Source of the DNA: an uncultured Hyphomicrobiales bacterium
GTDB lineage: Bacteria > Pseudomonadota > Alphaproteobacteria > Rhizobiales > Devosiaceae
Direction of reading: 5' to 3'
DNA length: 39,398 nt
Assembly (NCBI GenBank): GCA_903842455.1
Contig: CAIMLX010000248.1
Coordinates: 1-39,398, forward strand
Under the pieces are notes generated by a model, which was not told the origin of the DNA, ran no database searches, and saw only the letters and a list, made by a program, of their open reading frames with translations. Shown in pieces: positions 3,469-39,398 of this stretch (positions are counted from its first letter, which is position 1; the number at the start of each line of letters is the position of its first letter). Position numbers and translations under genes: made by a program.

Positions 3469-6308
3469 TGCTGCGTCGGAAGCACATAAGGGCACCCGCC
3501 ACCTTCGATCCGGGGCCGGGCCATCCGCGCGAGCGGCTGATCTACGCCAATGATGCGGAGATGGAGATGCTCCGTAGGCTGACGGATGGCACCGTCAGTC
3601 GCGGACCCCGTGGCATCCCCTCCTTCGCCGTCACGTCCGGCAAGGAGACCGGGACGACCATGGGCGGTGGCAACGCCACCAGCTCGAACCCGTCCGGCGG
3701 TGGACCCGGTGGCCCCTTCGGCCCGAACAGCGGCCCCTCGAAGGCTCCCTCGGCACCCGCCTCGGGCGTCGGAGGTGGCAACAAGGGCACCTCCCAGAAC
3801 AGCTCCCCGAAGAGCCCGGCAGGCCCCTCCGGCCCGAACAGCGGCGCATCCGCAGCGAAGCCCGCTGGAGGCTCTCCTGCGTCGGGGGCGTCTACCCCCA
3901 CGGGCGGCTCGAAATCGCCGTCCAGCACCTCTCCCGGCTCCGTTAAGAGCCCATCCAGCCCCATGGGTGGGCAGGGCTCGTCTTTTGGCAGCTCGGCAGC
4001 CGCCGCCAGCTACAATCGAGGTGCGATCAGCCGCTCGGCTCCCACCCCGGCATCGCCCATGGGCGGACAGGGCTCGTCCTTCTCGCGCCCCTCGGCTGCG
4101 GCAGAGGCGAACCGCCAGACGGCCAGCGCCATCAAGGGCGGACAGAACCCCTCCGGCTCTCAGCGCGTGGCCTCCGGCGTCAGCCAGTCGCAGAAGGACG
4201 CCTACACCCAGTTCGGCCAGAAGATGGCCGCAGCTCCTCGCCAGCCCGAGATCACCCGCACGCCCGGTGACGCCGAGCAGCTCGCCCGCATGGCGCGTGC
4301 CGAGAACGGCCTCATCCGCGATCCGGTGACGGGCAAGATGTCCCAGCTCGCCGCGCAGGGCACCATGAACGTGGTCCGCAATCGCGCCGAGAACCAAGGC
4401 GTCGATGTCGAGGGCATCATCTCCCAGTCCGGGCAGTTCAGCCCATGGGGCAATGGCACCTACGCAGCGACGAAGCCGACCGCAGCCGAGACCGCCATGG
4501 CAGAACAGGTGCTGCGCGGCGTGACGCCGGACTATACGGCCACCCCCGCTCGCCCACAGGGTGCGGACTACTATCACAACACCGACACGGTGAAGAACAA
4601 GAGCGGCTATTCCAACGCCGCGACGAAGTCTCGCGTGAAGGATCGCTTCGCCTCGACCATGTCGGTTGCTGACGCGGTGAAGCCCGGCGTCTATGGACAC
4701 GACTACGGATACGATCCGACCGGGATGCCAGCCTCCAGCTTCAAGACCACTCCCATGGCCCCGGCTCCGAAGGGTCGCACCGACTACGGTACCGGGCGCG
4801 TGCCCACCGCAGCGAACGTGCCGCAGGGCGCGCTATCGCCTGACCCGAACTATGGCGGCTTCGTCGGCAGCTCTCCGGCAGCTCCTCGCTCGCGCAATGC
4901 GCCGGGCATGTTTGGTGGTACCCGGCCTGACTTCGGAAGTGGCGCGTCGAAGGTCAGCGCGGAGAGCGTGCCCGACGAGGACTATGGCACCATCGGCATG
5001 GGCTTCAACGTGCCTCGCGGCCTTGGCTATAATTCGCGCTTTGAGGATCAGCTCAACGAGTACGGCACGCTGCGCGACATCCAAGACCCGAACCAGTTCT
5101 CGACCCAGAGGGTGCGGGATGGCTTCTACAGCGACCGCGTCGGGCCGGGCGGCACCAGCACCCCGATCAACGGCTGGTCGAATGGTTTCGACCCGAACAA
5201 GCTGTCGGCGGACGGCCAGCACCTCTATGACGCGATGGCTGACACTGGCCTCCGCACTGGCGTGCCGCGCGATTACTTCTCCGGCAGGGCTGGTCGATCC
5301 AGCACGCCGAACCACCCGGCAGGCAATGCCATCGACACGCGCGTCATGGACCCGACAACCGGGCGTCCGGTCGGCAACGAATACAATCCCATCCGCCTGT
5401 CTGGCGAGACGCGGGCGGCATACGACAATGCTGCGGACGATGTCCTCGACACGATGTACCAGAACCCCGACATGTACGGCGGTCTGGCTCCTCGCGCTCG
5501 CTATGGCGGCGACTTCCGCAGCTCGACGCCCTACGACCAGATGCACATGGACGTGACGCCGGGCGGCGGCTTCAGTGGCGAGCAACGAACACGTCACGCC
5601 GCAGCAGTGGGCCGCTCCGGCAACACACCGGGCACTGGTGGCTACATGACCGCATCGGCCACCAACCCCGGCATCATGAACAGCGCCCCGCCAGAGCAGG
5701 GATATGAGCTGTCCGAGGGTGGCATCTACAACGGCCTGCGCTCGATCCCCGGTGCCATCTCCGGCCTCGGTCGCGGCCTCCGCTCCATCAGCGAGACGAT
5801 CTCGACGCCGAACCCGGCCTTCAAGGGCGCGGCCGGGATGCTCGCCAGCCCGAACCCCATCGTCCGCGCAGGCGCGCAGGCGGTCGCTGGTCAGGTGATC
5901 GGCCCGCAGGTGAAAGAGTTCGCGCGCTCGACCATCCAGAGCATCAAGGACATCGCAGACCCGAACAACCCGAGCGCACAGGCGGCGCAGAAGGCTGGCG
6001 GCTACGGCTCGCGCAAACCGTCCGACACTTCGGGCTCTGTCCGTGATGACCAGCGCGGCGAGCAGCGCGAAGGATCGAAGACGGCCTCCGCGACGAGCAA
6101 GGGCAACCCGGATCGCGGCAAGGGCGGTGACCGTGAGAACGGTCGCCAGAAGGAGACCTCCGCGCAGAAGGCCAAGCGCATCGGGAAGAAGAAGATCGAA
6201 GACCTTGCCAAGCCCGAGCCGAAGGCTGCGGACTGGAGCAACTACACGAATGTCATGACCAAGGAGCAGGCTATGCGAAAGCTCCTCGGCGAGGAGTGGT
6301 ACGCATGA
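3468..6308 (+). CDS. Virion-associated peptidoglycan hydrolase with SleB-like and M15-like domains
   Basis: The protein has 946 residues. Residues 1-250 are Gly/Ser/Pro-rich, with SPMGGQGSSF twice. Around 266-330 is a cell-wall-hydrolase (SleB/CwlJ, Hydrolase_2) pattern: LARMARAE with candidate catalytic E279, then NVVRNRAEN and QFSPWGNG. Around 580-700 is a VanY/M15-like zinc peptidase pattern: H616 and D623 in HPAGNAID (the HxxGxAxD signature) and H693 and D695 in HMD. The C-terminal 200 residues are helical and charged. It probably travels in the virion and opens the cell wall at DNA entry, cutting glycan strands and peptide cross-links with different domains. It sits directly before the ejection-type proteins and overlaps both neighbours (TGATG, ATGA). 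Domain calls rest on motifs only. Confidence 0.72.
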   Translation: MLRRKHIRAPATFDPGPGHPRERLIYANDAEMEMLRRLTDGTVSRGPRGIPSFAVTSGKETGTTMGGGNATSSNPSGGGPGGPFGPNSGPSKAPSAPASGVGGGNKGTSQNSSPKSPAGPSGPNSGASAAKPAGGSPASGASTPTGGSKSPSSTSPGSVKSPSSPMGGQGSSFGSSAAAASYNRGAISRSAPTPASPMGGQGSSFSRPSAAAEANRQTASAIKGGQNPSGSQRVASGVSQSQKDAYTQFGQKMAAAPRQPEITRTPGDAEQLARMARAENGLIRDPVTGKMSQLAAQGTMNVVRNRAENQGVDVEGIISQSGQFSPWGNGTYAATKPTAAETAMAEQVLRGVTPDYTATPARPQGADYYHNTDTVKNKSGYSNAATKSRVKDRFASTMSVADAVKPGVYGHDYGYDPTGMPASSFKTTPMAPAPKGRTDYGTGRVPTAANVPQGALSPDPNYGGFVGSSPAAPRSRNAPGMFGGTRPDFGSGASKVSAESVPDEDYGTIGMGFNVPRGLGYNSRFEDQLNEYGTLRDIQDPNQFSTQRVRDGFYSDRVGPGGTSTPINGWSNGFDPNKLSADGQHLYDAMADTGLRTGVPRDYFSGRAGRSSTPNHPAGNAIDTRVMDPTTGRPVGNEYNPIRLSGETRAAYDNAADDVLDTMYQNPDMYGGLAPRARYGGDFRSSTPYDQMHMDVTPGGGFSGEQRTRHAAAVGRSGNTPGTGGYMTASATNPGIMNSAPPEQGYELSEGGIYNGLRSIPGAISGLGRGLRSISETISTPNPAFKGAAGMLASPNPIVRAGAQAVAGQVIGPQVKEFARSTIQSIKDIADPNNPSAQAAQKAGGYGSRKPSDTSGSVRDDQRGEQREGSKTASATSKGNPDRGKGGDRENGRQKETSAQKAKRIGKKKIEDLAKPEPKAADWSNYTNVMTKEQAMRKLLGEEWYA

Positions 6309-17564: not shown

Positions 17565-17803
17565 CGCGACAGGGAGGTGTGCTGGGCGGCAAAGTCCGAG
17601 GTGGCAGCTAGGGTGGTGGCTTGGACCCCATGAAAGCCGCTGGCGGGGCTCCTACGAGGTCGGACAAATATTCGACCGAATATCTGTCCAGCCTCGGTAG
17701 AGCGCAGTTCGCGCCGATACCGGGTTGACCGTCCACCGCCGTCCACATAGGCTCACCGTTGATCGCAGTCATGGGCGGTCTCCAGAGTGGTCCCAAAACG
17801 CAG
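17565..17803. other. Intergenic stretch with two possible tiny ORFs and a dyad
   Basis: No confident gene lies between the replication block and the terminator. Two short + strand frames exist: 17554-17700 (48 codons, basic product) and 17630-17728 (32 residues, containing RSDKYSTEYLSSLGR). Neither has a strong start site, and they overlap. The stretch also contains the 28-bp dyad listed separately. It may hold the 3' leader of the replication transcript or a small regulatory RNA. Confidence 0.4.
17662..17689. promoter_or_regulatory. 28-bp imperfect dyad
   Basis: GGACAAATATTC (17662-17673) and GAATATCTGTCC (17678-17689) are inverted repeats with one mismatch and a 4-bp centre, GACC. The AT-rich core stands out in this GC-rich genome. 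It could be an operator or other protein-binding site, or an RNA hairpin near the end of the replication transcript. It also lies within a doubtful 32-residue frame. Confidence 0.4.
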
Positions 17804-17835
17804 AAAACCCCGCCAGTTCCCCGGCGGGGTTTTTT
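17804..17835. terminator. Bidirectional intrinsic terminator
   Basis: Stem CCCCGCC (17808-17814) pairs with GGCGGGG (17823-17829), with an 8-nt loop. It is followed by TTTTTT on the + strand and preceded by AAAA, which gives TTTT on the - strand. It separates the convergent + strand replication block and the - strand early block and should stop transcription from both sides. Confidence 0.92.
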
Positions 17836-17855
17836 GTTGTCGTCGTGAGAGCAGA

Positions 17856-18116
17856 TCAGATCGGGCCTCGCCTCCATTCATCGAAGCCCTTCATCGTGTG
17901 GCCCGTGGCGACTGCGCCCTTCCACTTCACCAAGTCGCGTTCGAGCTGCTCGTCGGCCTCGACCTGCCGGAGGTCGGCGAAGGCTTGCGCCACCGCCTTC
18001 TTGGCCTCCTCGACCGCATGGACCGCGTCGTGGTGCTTCCATGTGTAGTCGATGCTGGCGTTGGCCTGACTGAGGGCGTTGCTGATCGCGGCGTGCAGTC
18101 TGGTACTCCAGCCCAT
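17856..18116 (-). CDS. Small helical protein, end of early block
   Basis: The 86-residue protein is mainly charged helix (HDAVHAVEEAKKAVAQAFADLRQ begins near residue 29; quoted part AVAQAFADLRQVEADEQ) and ends EWRRGPI. No family is recognised. The start overlaps the DUF932 stop as TGATG, so it is translated together with that gene. It is the last gene before the bidirectional terminator. Confidence 0.6.
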   Translation of the reverse strand: MGWSTRLHAAISNALSQANASIDYTWKHHDAVHAVEEAKKAVAQAFADLRQVEADEQLERDLVKWKGAVATGHTMKGFDEWRRGPI

Positions 18117-19009
18117 CACGCACCCCCCTTCAGCTTCGCCATCTCCTCGGTCAGGGTCCAGAGCGCACGGTTCAGCTTGATGTCGCCATCGACCGAGCGC
18201 ACCGGGCGCGTGGTCTGCTGGATGTGGTTCTGACGGCCCTGCGCGTCCTCGCGGACAGCGTCGAAGGAGATGCCTCCCTTGATCAGGTTCTCCTGCGCCC
18301 GGTTGAACACCGTCCACAGGTCCGGCTTCTCGTCCTCCCGGCGGCGCGACTTCAGCGCCTTCAGGGGATCGTCCTTCAGGCTCTTCGGCACCTCGTCCTC
18401 GAAGCGGGCGACCAGTGCCGCGCTGGCGAAGGCGCGAGCCTCGCCGGGATCGAGGACAATCTGCTTCAGGCTCTCGACACGATCCAGAACCTGCTGGCCG
18501 TGGCTGATCACCGAGTAGGTGCCCTCGATGACCTTGTCGAGCGCGTGACCACGATGCGGGACTTTCACATCGCCGACCACGCTGTCGGCCACCACCATGC
18601 CGTTCATGCAGATGAACCGGAACAGGCCGAGCATCAGGTGGTACTGGCTGGTGCCGTCGTGACCGTTTTTCAGGACGATCTCGGGCAGCGTCTCGTTGAG
18701 GTTGCGCGGCTGGAGCTGGTCAACGCGGCGCAGGCGAAGCATGTGCTTGGTGAAGGCACGCTTCTCGGCATCGCTCGATCCGCCGACGCGCACCCCGGTG
18801 ATGGCCCAGCCTTCCTTGGCGAGGGCGTTGATCATCTCATGGGTGGGGATGTGGGCGAACCGCTCCGAGCGCGAGCTGTGCGGCACCTCGGCGAAGAGGG
18901 CCGGGCAGTGGGCGCGGATGAAGTCGATGTCGAGAGCCTCGCCGGGGCGGGCTTCGAGCTTCACTGCGTTGCGGCCAAAGATGGTGGCGCGGGGGTTGTA
19001 GAAGTTCAT
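18116..19009 (-). CDS. DUF932-family protein
   Basis: This 297-residue protein matches the DUF932 pattern found in phages and plasmids: HIPTHEMINALAKEGWAI, quoted as PTHEMINALAKEGWAITG, then LPEIVLKNGHDGTSQY, LMLGLFRFICMNGMVV and a helical C-terminal region with ALWTLTEEMAKL. The biochemical function of the family is not settled. It starts at 19009, after GGAGACGACC. The frame extends to 19045, but that part is the repeated leader element and not protein. It is the largest gene of the - strand early block, whose other members are small and unnamed. Confidence 0.8.
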   Translation of the reverse strand: MNFYNPRATIFGRNAVKLEARPGEALDIDFIRAHCPALFAEVPHSSRSERFAHIPTHEMINALAKEGWAITGVRVGGSSDAEKRAFTKHMLRLRRVDQLQPRNLNETLPEIVLKNGHDGTSQYHLMLGLFRFICMNGMVVADSVVGDVKVPHRGHALDKVIEGTYSVISHGQQVLDRVESLKQIVLDPGEARAFASAALVARFEDEVPKSLKDDPLKALKSRRREDEKPDLWTVFNRAQENLIKGGISFDAVREDAQGRQNHIQQTTRPVRSVDGDIKLNRALWTLTEEMAKLKGGA

Positions 19010-19079
19010 GGTCGTCTCCTTTGTGTTGGGCGGGCTTGCCCTCACGCCGCCCAGCGAACCGGACGGCGGTAGAGTTTCC
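19010..19079 (-). promoter_or_regulatory. Structured leader element A (early operon repeat)
   Basis: Read on the - strand, the element begins at the upstream stop codon (TAG) with GGGAAACTC. A 10-bp hairpin (19045-19068) follows with a UUCG loop and two G-U pairs, then a GGGCAAGCCCGCCC box and finally GGAGACGACC before the DUF932 ATG. It is one of five copies. The hairpin sequence differs from the other copies, but pairing is kept. Confidence 0.75.
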
Positions 19080-19505
19080 CTACTTGACGCGCATCACCTC
19101 GACGCCCTCGCCGGGCACCCATGCGGTGATGTAGTTGCCGAGGCCCCACATGCGGCCAGCCTGCGCTGCGGAGGCGCTGCGGAGGCGCTCCTCGGTGAAG
19201 TCACCGCTCGGCCTCACCAGCACCACCTCGCCCGGCTTCAGGTGCTGGAGCTGGGCCGCGATGTAGCGGGACAGGTCGCCAGACCGCTTGTGCCCGTTCG
19301 GGTAGCGCCGTTTCAGCGGCTGCACCAAGGCAGCGGTCGGCTGCAGCTCCTCCACCGCCTCGATGATGGCGAGGATCACACTGCGGTGTTTTGAGATATT
19401 CGAGGCGGTTGCCTTCGCTGCCATCCAGTCCTTGCGCTTCAGCTCGCCGACTAGCTTGTTGGCGGCGTCGCGCAGCAGCTCGGCGTGTTCGTCAATCTTG
19501 GTCAT
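19080..19505 (-). CDS. Early protein of unknown function
   Basis: The 141-residue protein has a helical first half (EHAELLRDAANKLVGELK, SVILAIIEAVEEL) and a second half with strands (GEVVLVRPSG) and a Gly-rich turn (AGRMWGLGNYI). I do not recognise it. The start is the ATG at 19505 after GGAGACAAGACC. The frame continues to 19538 only because the leader element has no in-frame stop. It is flanked by leader copies A and B. Confidence 0.6.
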   Translation of the reverse strand: MTKIDEHAELLRDAANKLVGELKRKDWMAAKATASNISKHRSVILAIIEAVEELQPTAALVQPLKRRYPNGHKRSGDLSRYIAAQLQHLKPGEVVLVRPSGDFTEERLRSASAAQAGRMWGLGNYITAWVPGEGVEVMRVK

Positions 19506-19574
19506 GGTCTTGTCTCCAGTGGGCGGGCTTGCCCCCACTGCACCGGGCCGGAGCCCGATGCAGGAAGAGTTTCC
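19506..19574 (-). promoter_or_regulatory. Structured leader element B (early operon repeat)
   Basis: Beginning at the upstream TAG, this copy has GGAA-ACUC-UUCC, then a 10-bp hairpin (19539-19562, loop UCCG, one G-U pair), the GGGGGCAAGCCCGCCC box (19521-19536) which can itself fold, and GGAGACAAGACC before the ATG at 19505. Confidence 0.78.
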
Positions 19575-19781
19575 CTAGAAGGCGATGTTCGAGACGTTGC
19601 TGTTCAGCCACCCGATCAGCGCGGCCTTGTTGGTGGGAACGTCGAGGCTCTTCACGGTCGCGCAAGCTGCCCGGCCCAGCTCGTTGTTCGCCAGCTTGCG
19701 GCACTCACGCTCCGATGCTGCCCAGACCACCCTGCGGCCCTTGCCGTCTGCTGCTGGTGCCCATGCTCGCCAGAGGTTCAT
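19575..19781 (-). CDS. Small early protein of unknown function
   Basis: A 68-residue product with basic and aromatic residues (WRAWAPAADGKGRRVVWAAS) and a helix with two Cys (RECRKLANNELGRAAC). No family is recognised. It starts at the ATG at 19781 and overlaps the upstream stop as TGATG, so it has no leader element of its own and depends on coupled translation. Confidence 0.6.
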   Translation of the reverse strand: MNLWRAWAPAADGKGRRVVWAASERECRKLANNELGRAACATVKSLDVPTNKAALIGWLNSNVSNIAF

Positions 19782-20041
19782 CAGAAGGGCTCCCTCGGTG
19801 AGAGCTTGCCCAGAGCGGAGGTGGCCTCCGCCTTGTTCGAGGCGATGATGGCCGGGTCCACGATGATGATGCCCAGATACTCCTGCGCGCCGTTCAGCAT
19901 CGTCGCCCACTCATCGAGGGCTCGCCAGTCACCATCGGTGCGGCGCTCGGTGGGGATTTGCTTGGTGGCCCAGAAGGCCTCATGCGCGCCGACCAAGTCG
20001 CGGATCGCGCTTTCGAGGTTGCTCATTTTCAGTTCGGTCAT
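19781..20041 (-). CDS. Small early protein of unknown function
   Basis: The 86-residue product is mainly helical (SAIRDLVGAHEAFWATKQ, ALDEWATMLNGAQEYLGII). Its pattern resembles that of the 20352-20624 product (ALWDALNTPDHKR, CCWAGILMRAQRDVGVV), so the two may be diverged duplicates. The start is the first ATG, 6 nt after GGAG in leader copy C; a second in-frame ATG lies 15 bp downstream. Confidence 0.6.
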   Translation of the reverse strand: MTELKMSNLESAIRDLVGAHEAFWATKQIPTERRTDGDWRALDEWATMLNGAQEYLGIIIVDPAIIASNKAEATSALGKLSPREPF

Positions 20042-20109
20042 GGTTGTCTCCATGCGGGCGGGATTGCCCCCACTGCACCCGGTTGCCCGGATGCAGGAAG
20101 AGTTCCCCG
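20042..20109 (-). promoter_or_regulatory. Structured leader element C (early operon repeat)
   Basis: After the upstream TAG this copy has GGAA-CUC-UUCC, a 9-bp hairpin (20074-20095) with a GCAA tetraloop and one G-U pair, the box GGGGGCAATCCCGCCC (20055-20070), and GGAGACAACC before the ATG at 20041. GCAA is a GNRA-type loop, which favours a real RNA fold. Confidence 0.78.
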
Positions 20110-20355
20110 CTACTTCACCCGGCCCCAGCTCTCGCACTTCCACACTTCGTAGGAGGCGATGTCGAGGTTGGTGGGGAGAAGACCGCCCAGTGTGTCCTTG
20201 CGGCTCTTCTCGTTGTCGTGGATCGCGTTCTCGGCCTGCACCAGCGTCTTGTAGTTGCCGAGGCGCGACCGATACTTGCGGGCCGGGATGGTGACGAACA
20301 CCGCAAACTCTGCGGGCTCGAAGCTCTCGTCGGGAGGGGTCAGCCTGTAGGTCAT
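20110..20355 (-). CDS. Small early protein of unknown function
   Basis: The 81-residue protein begins with strands (EFAVFVTIPARKYRSRLG) and has a short helix (TLVQAENAIHDNEKSRK), then IASYEVWKCESWGRVK at the end. I do not recognise it. The ATG at 20355 overlaps the upstream stop as ATGA, so it is the second gene of a coupled pair with the gene above it. Confidence 0.58.
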   Translation of the reverse strand: MTYRLTPPDESFEPAEFAVFVTIPARKYRSRLGNYKTLVQAENAIHDNEKSRKDTLGGLLPTNLDIASYEVWKCESWGRVK

Positions 20356-20624
20356 ACCGGGCTGATCCCGTCTTCGTGGATGCGGCCCGACATGATGCCG
20401 TCGATCCGCTCCATGTGCTTGCGGGCGACATCGATGTGGCCCTGCAGGGTAACGTCGGCCATCAGCACGACGCCGACATCGCGCTGGGCGCGCATCAGGA
20501 TGCCAGCCCAGCAGCACACGCTGTTCCATGTGGAACGGTTGCGCTTGTGGTCGGGGGTGTTCAGGGCATCCCAGAGAGCCTCGTAGCTCACCGCGAAATC
20601 CTTGATCTGGTCAGGTGTAGGCAT
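20352..20624 (-). CDS. Small early protein of unknown function
   Basis: A 90-residue mainly helical protein (IKDFAVSYEALWDALN, GILMRAQRDVGVVLMADVT). Two ATGs lie 6 bp apart (20630 and 20624). GGAG is 3 nt from the first and 9 nt from the second, so I take 20624. It looks like a diverged relative of the 19781-20041 product, which shares the order helix, acidic turn, W-x-ILMRAQ-type helix. It is preceded by leader copy D. Confidence 0.58.
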   Translation of the reverse strand: MPTPDQIKDFAVSYEALWDALNTPDHKRNRSTWNSVCCWAGILMRAQRDVGVVLMADVTLQGHIDVARKHMERIDGIMSGRIHEDGISPV

Positions 20625-20693
20625 GGTCATGGTCTCCGTGGGCGGACTTGCCCCCACCCTCCCCGGCGCACCGGAGAGGGGAAGAGTTTTCCG
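20625..20693 (-). promoter_or_regulatory. Structured leader element D (early operon repeat)
   Basis: This copy follows the upstream TGA. It has GGAA-AACUC-UUCC, a 10-bp hairpin (20657-20680) with a UGCG loop and one G-U pair, the box GGGGGCAAGTCCGCCC (20640-20655), and GGAGACC. The hairpin sequence shares almost nothing with those of copies A to C, yet both arms have changed together. Confidence 0.78.
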
Positions 20694-20843
20694 TCAGTCT
20701 CTGTCGTTCTGGGCGATGCGCCACTCGGCGTCCTCTCGGACCTGCCGGGAGGTGCGCTTCCATTCGTTGAAGGTGGGGAAGTCACGGTCGCCGCAGGCAC
20801 GGGCCTCGGCGCGTTCGGTGCGGTACTGTTCGAGCTTCGACAT
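20694..20843 (-). CDS. 49-residue charged early protein
   Basis: This short gene encodes a very charged, helical protein (LEQYRTERAEARACGDRD, then FNEWKRTSRQVREDAEW). The start at 20843 has GGAGACCACC directly before it, which is the early start signature. The ribosome-binding site overlaps the stop codon region of the upstream gene (TAA, then GGAGACC). No family is recognised. Codon third positions are GC-rich like those of the neighbours, which supports coding. Confidence 0.62.
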   Translation of the reverse strand: MSKLEQYRTERAEARACGDRDFPTFNEWKRTSRQVREDAEWRIAQNDRD

Positions 20844-20853
20844 GGTGGTCTCC

Positions 20854-21057
20854 TTAGCGTGACATGCGGACGGCGAGTTCGAGGTCGCGCTTGCTGCGAT
20901 CCTCGTCGGCGATCAGCTCCATCGGGCCGATCACCCAAGTCTCAAGGAAGAGCTTCACACTGCGATCCTGCAGGTGAGCCGTTACCTCTGCCGAGGCAGA
21001 GCCGCCGCGAAGGCGGTCGATCAGGTTGCGGATCACTTCGTTCTCGGACTTGTTCAT
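20854..21057 (-). CDS. Small early protein downstream of the hammerhead ribozyme
   Basis: A 67-residue helical protein (SENEVIRNLIDRLRGGSAS, then RSVKLFLETWVIGPMEL and a basic end). No family is recognised. Of the two ATGs (21063 and 21057), the second lies 8 nt after GGAG and is preferred; the first is only 2 nt away. Its mRNA leader holds the hammerhead ribozyme, so cleavage would give a message that starts with the ribozyme's stem I hairpin. Confidence 0.6.
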   Translation of the reverse strand: MNKSENEVIRNLIDRLRGGSASAEVTAHLQDRSVKLFLETWVIGPMELIADEDRSKRDLELAVRMSR

Positions 21058-21073
21058 GGTCATGTCTCCAGTT

Positions 21074-21125
21074 GGTCTCATCAGCAGCCGCTTGACGGCT
21101 GGACCGCATCGCTGCGGTTTCGACC
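21074..21125 (-). ncRNA. Type II hammerhead ribozyme
   Basis: On the - strand, reading from 21125 down to 21074, the parts occur in type II order: stem II 5' strand GGUC; core GAAA; a stem III hairpin of 6 pairs counting the A-U closing pair (ACCGCA / UGCGGU) with a GCGA tetraloop; cleavage-site C17, giving GUC; a stem I hairpin (CAGCCG / CGGCUG, loop UCAAG); core CUGAUGA; stem II 3' strand GACC. All invariant core residues are present, and all three stems are perfectly paired. Predicted cleavage is between 21102 and 21101. It begins at the base after the TAA of the upstream gene (21126-21128) and ends 17 nt before the next start, exactly where the other junctions carry the leader element. 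Function is predicted from sequence, not tested. Confidence 0.92.
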
Positions 21126-21371
21126 TTAGAAGGGGCAGTCGGTGGCCTTCAGCCAGTCTTCGCGCTGGCGGACATGGAAGTCGTTGGCATAGTCGGCCAT
21201 GCGAAGTTCCTTGCCCGTGGCGGCGTCGAAGGCCGAGCCGCCGTCTATCTCGCGCCACGCGAGGTAAAGAGCGTAGATTGGGCTGGCGCAGTGATAGGCG
21301 AGCGGCTGACCAAGAGTGCAGCGGCCACGGTCTTCATCAACCAGCAGGGGGCGTACAGCGTAGAGGTTCAT
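21126..21371 (-). CDS. First gene of the - strand early block, unknown function
   Basis: An 81-residue protein starting MNLYAVRPLLVDEDRG, with a middle segment YHCASPIYALYLAWREIDGG (partly quoted as IYALYLAWREI) and ending WLKATDCPF. I do not recognise it. The start at 21371 follows GGAGACGACC of leader copy E. It is the promoter-proximal gene of the operon. Its stop codon touches the hammerhead ribozyme, so a cleaved transcript would end just after this gene. Confidence 0.62.
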   Translation of the reverse strand: MNLYAVRPLLVDEDRGRCTLGQPLAYHCASPIYALYLAWREIDGGSAFDAATGKELRMADYANDFHVRQREDWLKATDCPF

Positions 21372-21443
21372 GGTCGTCTCCATTGTGTTGGGCGGGCTTG
21401 CCCCCACTGCGCCCGGACATGCCGGGCGTAGGGAAGGTTTCCC
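21372..21443 (-). promoter_or_regulatory. Structured leader element E (early operon repeat, operon head)
   Basis: This copy is not between two genes but in the 5' leader of the operon. It has GGGAA-ACC-UUCCC (21431-21443), a 7-bp hairpin CGCCCGG/CCGGGCG (21410-21428), the box GGGGGCAAGCCCGCCC (21390-21405), and GGAGACGACC before the ATG at 21371. Its presence without an upstream gene argues that the element serves the downstream gene and is not only a transcript end. Confidence 0.75.
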
Positions 21444-21546
21444 TTGATCTGCTTTTCACGATTTCAATCAGCGTGCGCCGGGAGGGGTGGGCTGGTGGGC
21501 ATCGCGCGTGCAGCGCCCCTCGGTGCCCCCTCTATATGCGCCCGCC

Positions 21547-21565
21547 GTAGAGCGAAGTTAAGCGA
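21547..21565 (+). repeat. 19-bp dispersed motif, copy 1
   Basis: GTAGAGCGAAGTTAAGCGA contains AGCGA twice with a 5-bp spacer. A copy with one change (A to C) lies at 22583-22601. Both copies are non-coding or overlap a stop codon and flank the 21862-22586 gene pair, so they may be protein-binding sites or the edges of a mobile gene cassette. Confidence 0.6.
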
Positions 21566-21829
21566 CCATACGACATGGCAGCTATGCATTGGGCGCATGA
21601 GGAATGTGACGACCATCACACCGACATTGCGTAGGAAGGCCGTGGACGGCGTTCTTGCTCCACCCATCCTACCCTACCGGGCACCTCGTCCGAGGGCACT
21701 CAGCGGCCTTCCCTGAAGGTGTCAAATTCGGCCTTGTTTATCAGTAAGTTACAAGGTCAACAAAAATCGATAGCATGGCAGGGCTGCAGACAATGCATAC
21801 CTCCCATGGTGGGGGTGGTCTATGGTGGG

Positions 21830-21846
21830 GGGTGGGCATCCCGCCC
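21830..21846 (+). promoter_or_regulatory. Leader hairpin before the 21862 gene
   Basis: GGGTGGG (21830-21836) pairs with CCCGCCC (21840-21846), with one G-U pair and a 3-nt loop. It is followed 4 nt later by AGGAGACACCC and the ATG. This resembles the last part of the early leader elements, but on the + strand. Confidence 0.55.
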
Positions 21847-21861
21847 GCACAGGAGACACCC

Positions 21862-22356
21862 ATGACCGTTATCATCCACGCGCCCGGCGGCGACATGCGC
21901 GCCCTCGCCGCTACCGCCGTTGACAGCTTCATCAAGGAGGCGGGCAACCCCTCCTATGACACCGACCTGCGCCAGCAGGCCATCGAGGCCATCGTGGACT
22001 ACCGCCCGGCCTATGTCCGCATGTCGGACTACAGCGACCAGCTCTCGACCAATGCCGCGATCTGGGCCATGGGCGGCAAGCTCGGCGTGACGAGCCTCGA
22101 CCCGGTCGCGCCGCTCTTCGGCCTCCGCGCCGTGGCGAAGCACATGGAGGCCCTCTGGCCTGACATGGCGGACATCAAGATAGAGAAGGCCCTCCGCAAC
22201 ATCGCCCCGGCCAATGCCATGGCCCTCCTCGACCGACAGCTCCTCCTTGAGGAGCGCGGCATCCGCGAGGCCGACGTGGACTGGAGCAACGCTGCTGCCT
22301 TGAGCCGGGCGCGTCAGAACACCACCAAGACGATGGTCTCGGGGGCTCAGTCATGA
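21862..22356 (+). CDS. Early protein of unknown function
   Basis: The 164-residue product has a helical N-terminal region (ALAATAVDSFIKEAGN), a middle rich in Ala (TNAAIWAMGGKLG) and a long charged helix (ANAMALLDRQLLLEERG). I do not recognise it. The start at 21862 has AGGAGACACCC before it, the early start signature. It overlaps the next gene as ATGA. The pair faces away from the - strand early block and shares its leader style. Confidence 0.62.
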   Translation: MTVIIHAPGGDMRALAATAVDSFIKEAGNPSYDTDLRQQAIEAIVDYRPAYVRMSDYSDQLSTNAAIWAMGGKLGVTSLDPVAPLFGLRAVAKHMEALWPDMADIKIEKALRNIAPANAMALLDRQLLLEERGIREADVDWSNAAALSRARQNTTKTMVSGAQS

Positions 22357-22586
22357 AGCCGCACCACAAGATCGCCATCGAGAGCCTTCTGACCAATGCC
22401 TGCTCGGCGGTGGACCTGCTGGGTAAGGTCCAGCTCGGCACCATCAAGGAGGAAGACCTGAAGGTCTACTTCGGCCTCAAGCGGGCCTGCGAGCTGGTGG
22501 ACAGGGTGGTCGCCGATCTGGAGCAGGAGCGGCTTGAGGAGAAGCTGGCGTTGCGAAAGCCCGCCGACGCGCGAGGTGCCCTGTAG
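22353..22586 (+). CDS. Small helical protein of unknown function
   Basis: A 77-residue protein that is almost entirely helical (IAIESLLTNACSAVDLLG, LKRACELVDRVVADLEQERL). No family is recognised. It is coupled to the upstream gene by ATGA and is followed 34 bp later by an intrinsic terminator. The stop codon lies inside copy 2 of the 19-bp motif. Confidence 0.58.
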   Translation: MKPHHKIAIESLLTNACSAVDLLGKVQLGTIKEEDLKVYFGLKRACELVDRVVADLEQERLEEKLALRKPADARGAL

Positions 22587-22601
22587 AGCGAAGTTCAGCG
22601 A
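22583..22601 (+). repeat. 19-bp dispersed motif, copy 2
   Basis: GTAGAGCGAAGTTCAGCGA differs from copy 1 (21547-21565) at one base. It includes the TAG stop of the 22353 gene. Together the two copies bracket about 1 kb that carries the 21862 and 22353 genes. Confidence 0.6.
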
Positions 22602-22620
22602 GGTTGGTACTGCGTAGAAG

Positions 22621-22645
22621 GGGAGCCTGTGATAGGCTCCCTTTT
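22621..22645 (+). terminator. Intrinsic terminator after the early + strand pair
   Basis: GGGAGCCT (22621-22628) pairs perfectly with AGGCTCCC (22634-22641) across a GTGAT loop and is followed by TTTT. It separates the early + strand pair from the late genes, so the late block needs its own promoter further downstream. Confidence 0.88.
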
Positions 22646-22747
22646 GCGTTGGCTCGACACCAGCGCAGCGTCCTTGCAAAGGCGTTTCCTCCCTGTCGAG
22701 CAACTTGGCCGGGGCCTCGGCTCCGGCTCTTTCTTTGGAGCCCCAGC
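22646..22747 (+). promoter_or_regulatory. Leader region at the head of the late block
   Basis: About 100 bp between the terminator and the first late gene. A GC-rich hairpin, GCCGGGGC / GCTCCGGC (22708-22727, loop CTCG, one G-U pair), is followed by a T-rich stretch and then GGAG 8 nt before the 22748 ATG. A late promoter is expected here or at 23599, but I cannot name one with confidence. Confidence 0.4.
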
Positions 22748-23149
22748 ATGACCGAAGCAACATCCATTCCCGAGATCGAGATCGAGCCCTTCAGCACCGA
22801 CGACGACGAGGTGGGCCGCGAAGAGGAGGCCAGCATCGAGGCCTCCGAGCCGGACTATCTGGCCTATGGCGCACCCGATCCGGGCGAAACGCCTCCAGAG
22901 CCCGTCCGGCAGCCCACGAGAGGCGAGCGCCTCGTCGGTCTGGCGCTCTCCCCCGGCATCGAGGTGATGCTGATGAAGGCCAGAGGTGGCCGGATCATCG
23001 ATGAGCTGTCGGAGCTGCCCCTCAACATGATCGAGCGCAACGGCCAGCCGAGGGTGGACGCCGACCACCACAAGATCGTGGAGGAGGCCATCGCCCGGCA
23101 GGTGGATGCGACCATGTGGGCCGTGAAGGCCCTGACGTGGGGCAAGTGA
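22748..23149 (+). CDS. Acidic protein of unknown function, head of late block
   Basis: The 133-residue protein has a very acidic, disordered N-terminal half (IEIEPFSTDDDEVGREEEAS) and a helical C-terminal half (GLALSPGIEVMLMKARGG, HKIVEEAIARQVDATMW). I do not recognise it. It lies just before the packaging genes, so a role in packaging or head assembly is possible but unproven. GGAG lies 8 nt before the ATG. The stop overlaps the next gene as TGATG. Confidence 0.6.
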   Translation: MTEATSIPEIEIEPFSTDDDEVGREEEASIEASEPDYLAYGAPDPGETPPEPVRQPTRGERLVGLALSPGIEVMLMKARGGRIIDELSELPLNMIERNGQPRVDADHHKIVEEAIARQVDATMWAVKALTWGK

Positions 23150-39234: not shown

Positions 39235-39398
39235 ATGACCTCACAGAAGAACATGCTGCAGATTATTCAGGACGCCTGCACCGATGTCGGCCAGCCGCGC
39301 CCATCCATCGTCGTCTCGGCCACGGAGGAGACGCCGCGCAGAATGCTCCGTCTACTGAATAAAGCTGGCACCCAGCTCATGCGCGAGTTTGAGTGGCC
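39235..39398 (+). CDS. Head-tail adaptor protein (5' part; continues at base 1)
   Basis: The ATG at 39235 opens the frame that continues through the repeated 141 bp and joins base 2 of the window in phase. After closing the circle the full gene is 714 bp and encodes 237 residues. The new N-terminal part reads MTSQKNMLQIIQDACTDVG, which fits adaptor proteins better than a start at base 86. Confidence 0.85.
   Translation, partial: MTSQKNMLQIIQDACTDVGQPRPSIVVSATEETPRRMLRLLNKAGTQLMREFEW
39258..39398. repeat. Terminal direct repeat, right copy
   Basis: This copy is identical to 1-141. It implies a circular or circularly permuted genome of 39,257 bp after removing one copy. Confidence 0.95.

Follow-up and report, generated by a model that had tools for sequence, protein, structure and literature searches.

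A compact type II hammerhead ribozyme and a second RNA element, M2, between the genes of a phage operon

The minus strand of the 39,398-nt stretch of DNA analysed here (the window) carries, at 21125-21074, a complete type II hammerhead ribozyme with a cleavage site predicted from its sequence. It lies between two small genes, g1 and g2, and very probably acts as a self-cleaving compact hammerhead that cuts their common message after the g1 stop codon, leaving separate messages capped by hairpins. Type II hammerheads in phages are already known, and the window copy is a new member; the novel lead is not the hammerhead but M2, a second RNA element in the same operon.

A minus-strand phage operon

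The window is a whole contig within a 4.56-Mb assembly. Because it is bounded by an exact 141-nt terminal direct repeat (1-141 and 39258-39398) and encodes a terminase, a portal and an amidase, it looks like a complete phage genome, and the contig probably represents a genome, circular or complete, of about 39.26 kb. The operon of the ribozyme comprises small genes on the minus strand, running from about 21.5 to 17.8 kb. Its features are as follows.

21547..21564, minus strand: promoter-like CGCTTAACTTCGCTCTAC upstream of the operon (second copy at 22600-22583, minus strand)
21126..21371, minus strand: g1, 81 aa, upstream of the ribozyme, no PHROG family at E 0.001
21074..21125, minus strand: compact type II hammerhead ribozyme, 52 nt (by sequence, fold, motif scan and covariance model)
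20854..21063, minus strand: g2, downstream of the ribozyme, 69 aa from the ATG at 21063, with the ATG at 21057 better spaced; phrog_34903, unknown function
20355-20624, minus strand: g4, small gene preceded by M2
19784-20041, minus strand: g6, small gene preceded by M2
18116..19009, minus strand: g9, phrog_12094 (unknown function), presumably DUF932-like
17804..17833, minus strand: terminator-like hairpin at the operon end, 13-bp stem and U-rich tail

The promoter-like element occurs as two exact copies in the window, where 0.04 would be expected with up to three mismatches. Its conserved part, TTAACTTCGCTCTA, is found in the window at 21547-21564 and 22583-22600, both on the minus strand, and at about 590-610 in the leader of L280, a cousin phage described below. 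No sigma-70-like promoter was found in 17600-22900, and the promoter-like element may therefore be specific to the phage. A scan for terminator-like hairpins gave 5 sites against 3.3 in shuffled sequence, which is weak by number alone. The genes g4 and g6 appear paralogue-like, in that the same L280 gene is matched by both. At the DNA level, we found no annotated phage relatives for the window operon or for L139, the contig with the most hammerhead copies, and protein relatives of g9 in the kin of the host were found in 1 of 101 genomes, the phage's own.

Sequence and fold of the hammerhead

Read from 21125 to 21074, the minus strand is GGUC GAA ACCGCA GCGA UGCGGU C / CAGCCG UCAAG CGGCUG CUGAUGA GACC, with the slash at the predicted cleavage site. 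The parts of the ribozyme are assigned as follows, with the basis of each in brackets.

21122..21125, minus strand: stem II 3' strand GGUC, partner of GACC at 21077-21074 (sequence, fold)
21119..21121, minus strand: core residues G12 A13 A14 (sequence)
21103..21118, minus strand: stem III hairpin, 6 bp including A15.1-U16.1, loop GCGA (sequence, fold)
21102, minus strand: C17, with predicted cleavage at 21102/21101 (sequence)
21085..21101, minus strand: stem I hairpin, 17 nt, 6 bp, loop UCAAG of the UNANG class (sequence, fold, relatives)
21078..21084, minus strand: core CUGAUGA, C3 to A9 (sequence)

The window copy has every element of the type II hammerhead core (CUGANGA, GAA, A15.1-U16.1 and H17) and three unbroken stems, of which I and III are closed by loops and II is open, as type II demands. 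Stem I comprises 6 bp, or 7 bp with a U-G pair counted. Energy minimisation folds the 52 nt into the hammerhead structure itself, at -22.5 kcal/mol (z -2.40), a stability that 5 of 200 shuffles equal or exceed. Averaged over the hammerhead pairs, the pair probability is 0.96 in the 52 nt and 0.97 in a 76-nt context, declining to 0.79 in 121 nt and to 0.43 in 201 nt, the last because of competing folds. A motif scan of both strands found no other type II hammerhead in the whole window.

An earlier interpretation of this DNA from its letters alone (the sequence-only reading) had described GGUC through GACC in type II order within 52 nt of the minus strand, with all invariant core residues and perfectly paired stems. 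Both the sequence and its place are as described there, and the sequence check and the minimum-energy fold agree on core and stems. The cleavage site that it proposed, 21102/21101, is the one also predicted here from the core, and its assignment to the type II hammerheads is borne out by motif and fold, by covariation among relatives and by a covariance model built independently of it.

Chance level and covariance models

The frequency of the motif by chance was estimated from 3,130 Mb of random single-strand sequence with the dinucleotide make-up of the window. A loose form of the motif (stems II, III and I of at least 2, 4 and 4 bp) matched 105 times and a strict form (4, 6 and 6 bp) 0 times; for the loose form, about 0.003 matches are expected by chance on both strands of the window. 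A model (R1) trained on 48 unique 52-nt relatives (alignment A1), with the window copy left out, scores the window copy at 70.1 bits (E 3.9e-15), and its sole further match in the rest of the window is an 18-nt piece at E 0.73. The random-sequence scan and the score from a model that excluded the window copy refute a chance resemblance, which is vanishingly improbable. The members of A1 were chosen by a script that demands the stems; the 100% pairing in that alignment is thus circular and does not count as independent evidence.

The sequence-only reading had also proposed a search with the Rfam type II model. That search returned no match, and it is R1 that recognises the element. In Rfam 15, no family reaches its gathering score in the whole window, and in a 252-nt stretch the hammerhead is not among the matches at E up to 10; the window copy stays below the 37-bit threshold of RF02276 (Hammerhead_II). 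The same model, at its cut-off, recovers 3 of 51 script-found copies from 12 loci and misses 48, the matches being one in L109 (60.4 bits) and two in L139, with none in L095, L130 or L051. RF02276 has the same permuted topology and core as the window copy, and some relatives are found by it; its printed model, however, has 2 stem II pairs, and a loop I and tail longer than in the compact copies. Because it recovers only 3 of the 51 relatives, we read the silence of Rfam on the window copy as a limit of the model, which is insensitive to the compact subclass, and have set it aside as a refutation of the hammerhead.

A compact subclass in phages

Viral contigs were searched with a pattern that fixed only stem II, the core and the UC preceding the cleavage site. 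At least 120 viral stretches match this pattern, with 127 unique matches among those listed. Stem I (at least 5 bp) and stem III (at least 4 bp), neither of which the pattern demands, are both formed by 122 of the 127 listed matches, and in the remaining 5 one of the two counts just 3 bp. Since they form undemanded, stems I and III are real and not a product of the choice of sequences. This argues against a non-cutting look-alike that would act just as a pair of intergenic hairpins, a reading in keeping with the failure of Rfam to call the element. The 48 aligned relatives, in addition, keep the unpaired core residues, a point of little weight since most of these were demanded by the search and the script, and arrays of similar hammerheads do cleave, according to the accessible text of PMC3088659. 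We consider such a look-alike very improbable.

The loci listed (L001-L146) contain 179 unique copies, which share further features that the pattern leaves free. Stem I plus its loop measures exactly 17 nt in 155 of these 179 listed copies, 98 of the 155 have a loop of the form G[UNANG]C, and an A stands just before stem II in 168 of the 179. Stem II varies where it may, with GGAC/GUCC in 16 of the 179 listed copies and GAUC, GGCC, AGGC or GAGC in a few. Judged by its sequence, the window copy belongs to a compact subclass, defined by a 17-nt stem I and loop, a UNANG loop, an A before stem II and no pseudoknot.

A pseudoknot between loop I and the tail was considered as the tertiary contact and rejected, as it is above chance neither in the UNANG class nor in the window. 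At least 4 Watson-Crick pairs can form in 2 of 102 copies of the UNANG class (null 4%) and in 6 of 53 copies with other 17-nt loops (null 7%, near chance), whereas copies with longer loops do form the pseudoknot (9 of 24, null 15%). The longest match between loop I and tail in the window copy is 2 Watson-Crick pairs, or 3 pairs with G-U, where at least 4 bp were required. Presumably, the subclass uses another contact between loop I and stem II. According to PMC3088659, a pseudoknot of loop I with the tail is possible in a majority of type II motifs. The type II hammerheads of that study (Perreault et al. 2011) resemble ours in the order of parts, the core, the phage setting and the flanking of single genes by multiple copies; relative to their consensus, as given in that text, the window subclass differs in its 5-nt UNANG loop I without a pseudoknot. 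The same text calls type II hammerheads 'very common in eubacteria', and the view of the sequence-only reading that they are the least familiar type does not hold against this.

The Rfam type II model thus overlooks a compact subclass present in at least 120 viral stretches, and surveys relying on the model will undercount phage ribozymes. A stricter pattern with a GUNANGC loop matched 49 stretches in genomes of bacterial species (L152-L200). Many of these are titled as metagenome assemblies of Gastranaerophilales or Synergistales/Synergistaceae, and in 12 of the 49 two copies lie about 350-380 nt apart. Some contigs hold many copies (11 in L139, 9 in L095, 6 in L130 and 5 in L051), all on a single strand within each. 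Across 19 genomes of the genus, with up to 150 candidates scored per genome, R1 matched in the phage's own genome only. A motif scan found no hammerhead in Pam5 and MW202489, which by their terminases are the two closest relatives in the phage collection, and hence phages of this type do not always carry one.

Such patchiness (1 of 19 genomes of the genus, and neither Pam5 nor MW202489), together with the many copies per contig in some phages, would suit a neutral or selfish ribozyme cassette that spreads via compact phage gaps and is kept because it is harmless. However, divergent phages preserve the core and stems despite differences in sequence, and the bias in strand and position is strong. 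Moreover, comparison with the cousin phage places hammerhead and the structurally unrelated M2 at the same leader position, contrary to what neutral spread of one cassette predicts. We hold this explanation to be quite improbable.

Placement between genes and the proposed cut

Gene context was scored for 180 unique listed copies from 101 loci, the window included. A same-strand stop codon lies within 120 nt upstream of 169 of the 180 listed copies, and a start codon with a ribosome-binding site lies downstream of 161. Both flank the ribozyme in 153 of the 180 listed copies, compared with 8 of 180 on the antisense strand at the same spots and 180 of 900 random same-strand spots. This contrast with the antisense control supports the prediction of the sequence-only reading that a single message is cut between two of its genes.

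The median distance from stop codon to ribozyme is 2 nt across the 180 listed copies. The ribozyme starts between -2 and +6 nt from the upstream stop in 133 of them (74 of 95 loci, counting one copy per locus), and 33 of the 180 overlap a TAG stop by one base, its G being also the first base of the ribozyme. Uniform placement within the same gaps would put 42% in the -2 to +6 range; the abutment on the stop codon is thus in excess, yet partly expected from the compactness of the gaps. In the window, the ribozyme starts directly after the TAA of g1 (21128-21126) and is followed after 10 nt by the ATG at 21063 and after 16 nt by that at 21057. As the context script demands a spaced ribosome-binding site, it was the ATG at 21057 that counted for g2.

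The close placement at the stop codon, with the TAG overlap, could also reflect control in place of constant processing, whereby a ribosome at the g1 stop covers stem II and the GAAA strand and so holds cutting back. Compact gaps by themselves, though, bring 42% of copies that close. In a variant of this idea, suggested by one fold, the upstream flank would hide the downstream ribosome-binding site. Among the 178 copies whose flank is long enough, at least 4 Watson-Crick pairs between flank and ribosome-binding site are possible in 41.6% (44.3% shuffled) and at least 5 in 14.0% (11.7% shuffled, sd 2.2); such sequestration is not conserved, and was rejected as a general mechanism. Control by the terminating ribosome strikes us as rather unlikely.

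Under constant processing by cleavage, the reading that we prefer, the minus-strand operon (about 21.5 to 17.8 kb) would be transcribed and its RNA would fold and cut itself at 21102/21101, parting the g1 message from that of g2 and the later genes. The g1 RNA would then end 24 nt past its stop codon, in the stem III hairpin and a 2',3'-cyclic phosphate, and the downstream RNA would have a 5'-OH at its start, followed by the stem I hairpin. From what is generally known of RNA decay in bacteria, a 3' end with a hairpin and a cyclic phosphate, and a 5' end with a 5'-OH and a hairpin, should both be protected at the points where mRNA breakdown usually sets in. Separate, stable, hairpin-capped messages could result, whose levels can differ. 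We infer cleavage and its site from the hammerhead family; that processing and end protection are the purpose is put forward more tentatively. In T7-like phages, RNase III sites between early genes leave hairpin ends, and there a host protein makes the cut. The outcome is the same as that proposed here, with the difference that a hammerhead needs no protein.

Published work on related arrays is consistent with such a cut. For clustered prophage hammerheads, PMC3088659 reports that three arrays cleaved in vitro and one in E. coli, and it contains the 2011 proposal that hammerheads divide long phage transcripts into messages the length of an operon or a gene. What hammerheads do in prokaryotes and their phages is, according to PMC6155905, an open question. 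The phrase 'stop codon' has 0 occurrences in the accessible main text of PMC3088659. Within the accessible open-licence literature, we found neither statistics on stop codons nor M2 in print, nor a compact subclass without the pseudoknot described as such.

M2, a second intergenic RNA element

A motif of 53-55 nt, which we call M2, occupies four gaps and the leader of the hammerhead operon. In its layout of about 53 nt, GGGAAACUCUUCC is followed by a covarying hairpin and then by GUGGGGGCAAGCCC. The window copies are as follows.

21390..21443, minus strand: M2 in the g1 leader (L280 has a hammerhead at the same leader position)
20640..20692, minus strand: M2 upstream of g4, 1 nt past a TGA stop
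20056..20108, minus strand: M2 upstream of g6, 1 nt past a TAG stop
19521..19575, minus strand: M2 upstream of g8, its first G being the last base of the g7 TAG stop
19028..19080, minus strand: M2 upstream of g9, its first G being the last base of the g8 TAG stop

A ribosome-binding site lies just downstream of all five window copies, and a stop codon just upstream of 4 of the 5. Pattern searches found M2 in further viral contigs as well. Among 18 listed copies, a list that leaves out one chance match in L095, 14 lie -2 to +6 nt from the stop of the longest upstream frame, and the other 4, including the leader copy of the window, are 11 to 44 nt from it.

From 24 distinct sequences, M2 folds as a single irregular hairpin. 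It starts with a 3-bp helix P1, in which A-U replaces G-C, followed by an internal loop that is mostly AAA/CAA[G/U]; beyond the loop, a C-U mismatch separates a 5-bp helix from a 10-bp one. In an alignment of the 24, fitted to the model, pairing holds in 98.8% of cells and both partners vary in 11 of 18 pairs; a MAFFT alignment of 17 sequences (A3) gives 98.7% and 9 of 18. Outside the variable hairpin, M2 keeps much of its sequence. An alternative fold with a GGGC/GCCC hairpin was disfavoured by eye, as the GCCC tail is absent from L256.

In the window, M2 matches no Rfam family at gathering score, and a search of 12 loci, six of them with M2, returned tRNAs only. Sub-threshold matches around one copy (E 5.2-8.5) are at chance level, and M2 as a known Rfam family was rejected, as was RAGATH-32 (E 8.5) as its identity. 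A relaxed M2 pattern matches mostly by chance: model R2 confirmed M2 in 5 of 90 new loci, tested in two sets of 83 and 7. In the kin of the host, M2 was found in 1 of 61 genomes, the phage's own, and neither Pam5 nor MW202489 contains it.

Exchange of hammerhead and M2

The cleanest case of exchange comes from L280 (record G233), a cousin phage whose g9 homologue is 61% identical and is likewise preceded by M2. Its leader aligns with that of the window at TTAACTTCGCTCTA and at GCTGATTGA.ATCGTGA, and the flanks rejoin at GGAGAC.ACCATGA; in between, the place of the window's M2 is taken in L280 by a hammerhead. Two weaker cases involve other genes. A hammerhead precedes the L280 homologue of g4 and g6 (27% identity to g4 over 75 aa, E 1e-12), both of which follow M2 in the window, and a g9 relative in L030 (33% identical) is directly preceded by a hammerhead. 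L006, which encodes a 46%-identical g9 relative, has a 52-nt hammerhead elsewhere.

Both elements are present in the window and in three records, on one strand in each (within 2.9 kb in G102, 1.3 kb in G233 and 2.3 kb in G236). As a general rule, a standing pair of hammerhead and M2 was nevertheless rejected. M2 was found at E 0.01 in 0 of 118 hammerhead-bearing records (38 + 50 + 30), many of which are fragments; two M2 control records run beside the last 30 were both positive, and L058, L068 and L100 had been dropped from the 121 hammerhead loci as contigs already counted. Conversely, 3 of 19 M2-bearing records have hammerheads (1 of 14 at E 0.1 and 2 of 5 at E 0.01) and 16 of the 19, many of them again fragments, have none, with a background of 0 hammerheads in 85 loci (78 + 7) covering 806 kb.

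M2 is a probable counterpart of the hammerhead. It might provide an equivalent site of cutting or end protection that is served by a nuclease or an RNA-binding protein, a plausible account that we place a little short of an even chance. As an irregular hairpin with an internal loop, M2 resembles the RNase III sites of T7-like phages in kind; an RNase III site would, however, be expected to keep less sequence outside the variable hairpin than M2 does. Alternatively, M2 might itself be an unrecognised class of self-cleaving ribozyme, interchangeable with the hammerhead as operon punctuation. This reading draws on the abutment of M2 on stop codons (14 of 18 listed copies), the location of all copies found on one strand within 3 kb in the four phages with both elements, the exchange in the leader, and the hammerheads before the g4/g6-like gene and before a distant g9 relative. 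We regard it as distinctly unlikely.

The locus makes the role of these elements testable, as one operon combines a hammerhead with five copies of M2 and a cousin phage has a hammerhead in place of M2 in its leader. If both elements serve as punctuation, a ribozyme and a different RNA would have come into convergent use for one task, and M2 would be a well-bounded candidate for a new processing RNA. In L216 (record G102), a hairpin-like stretch with GGGCAAGCCUGCCC lies at 4370-4440 on the minus strand, near M2 and two hammerheads, and is possibly another intergenic element.
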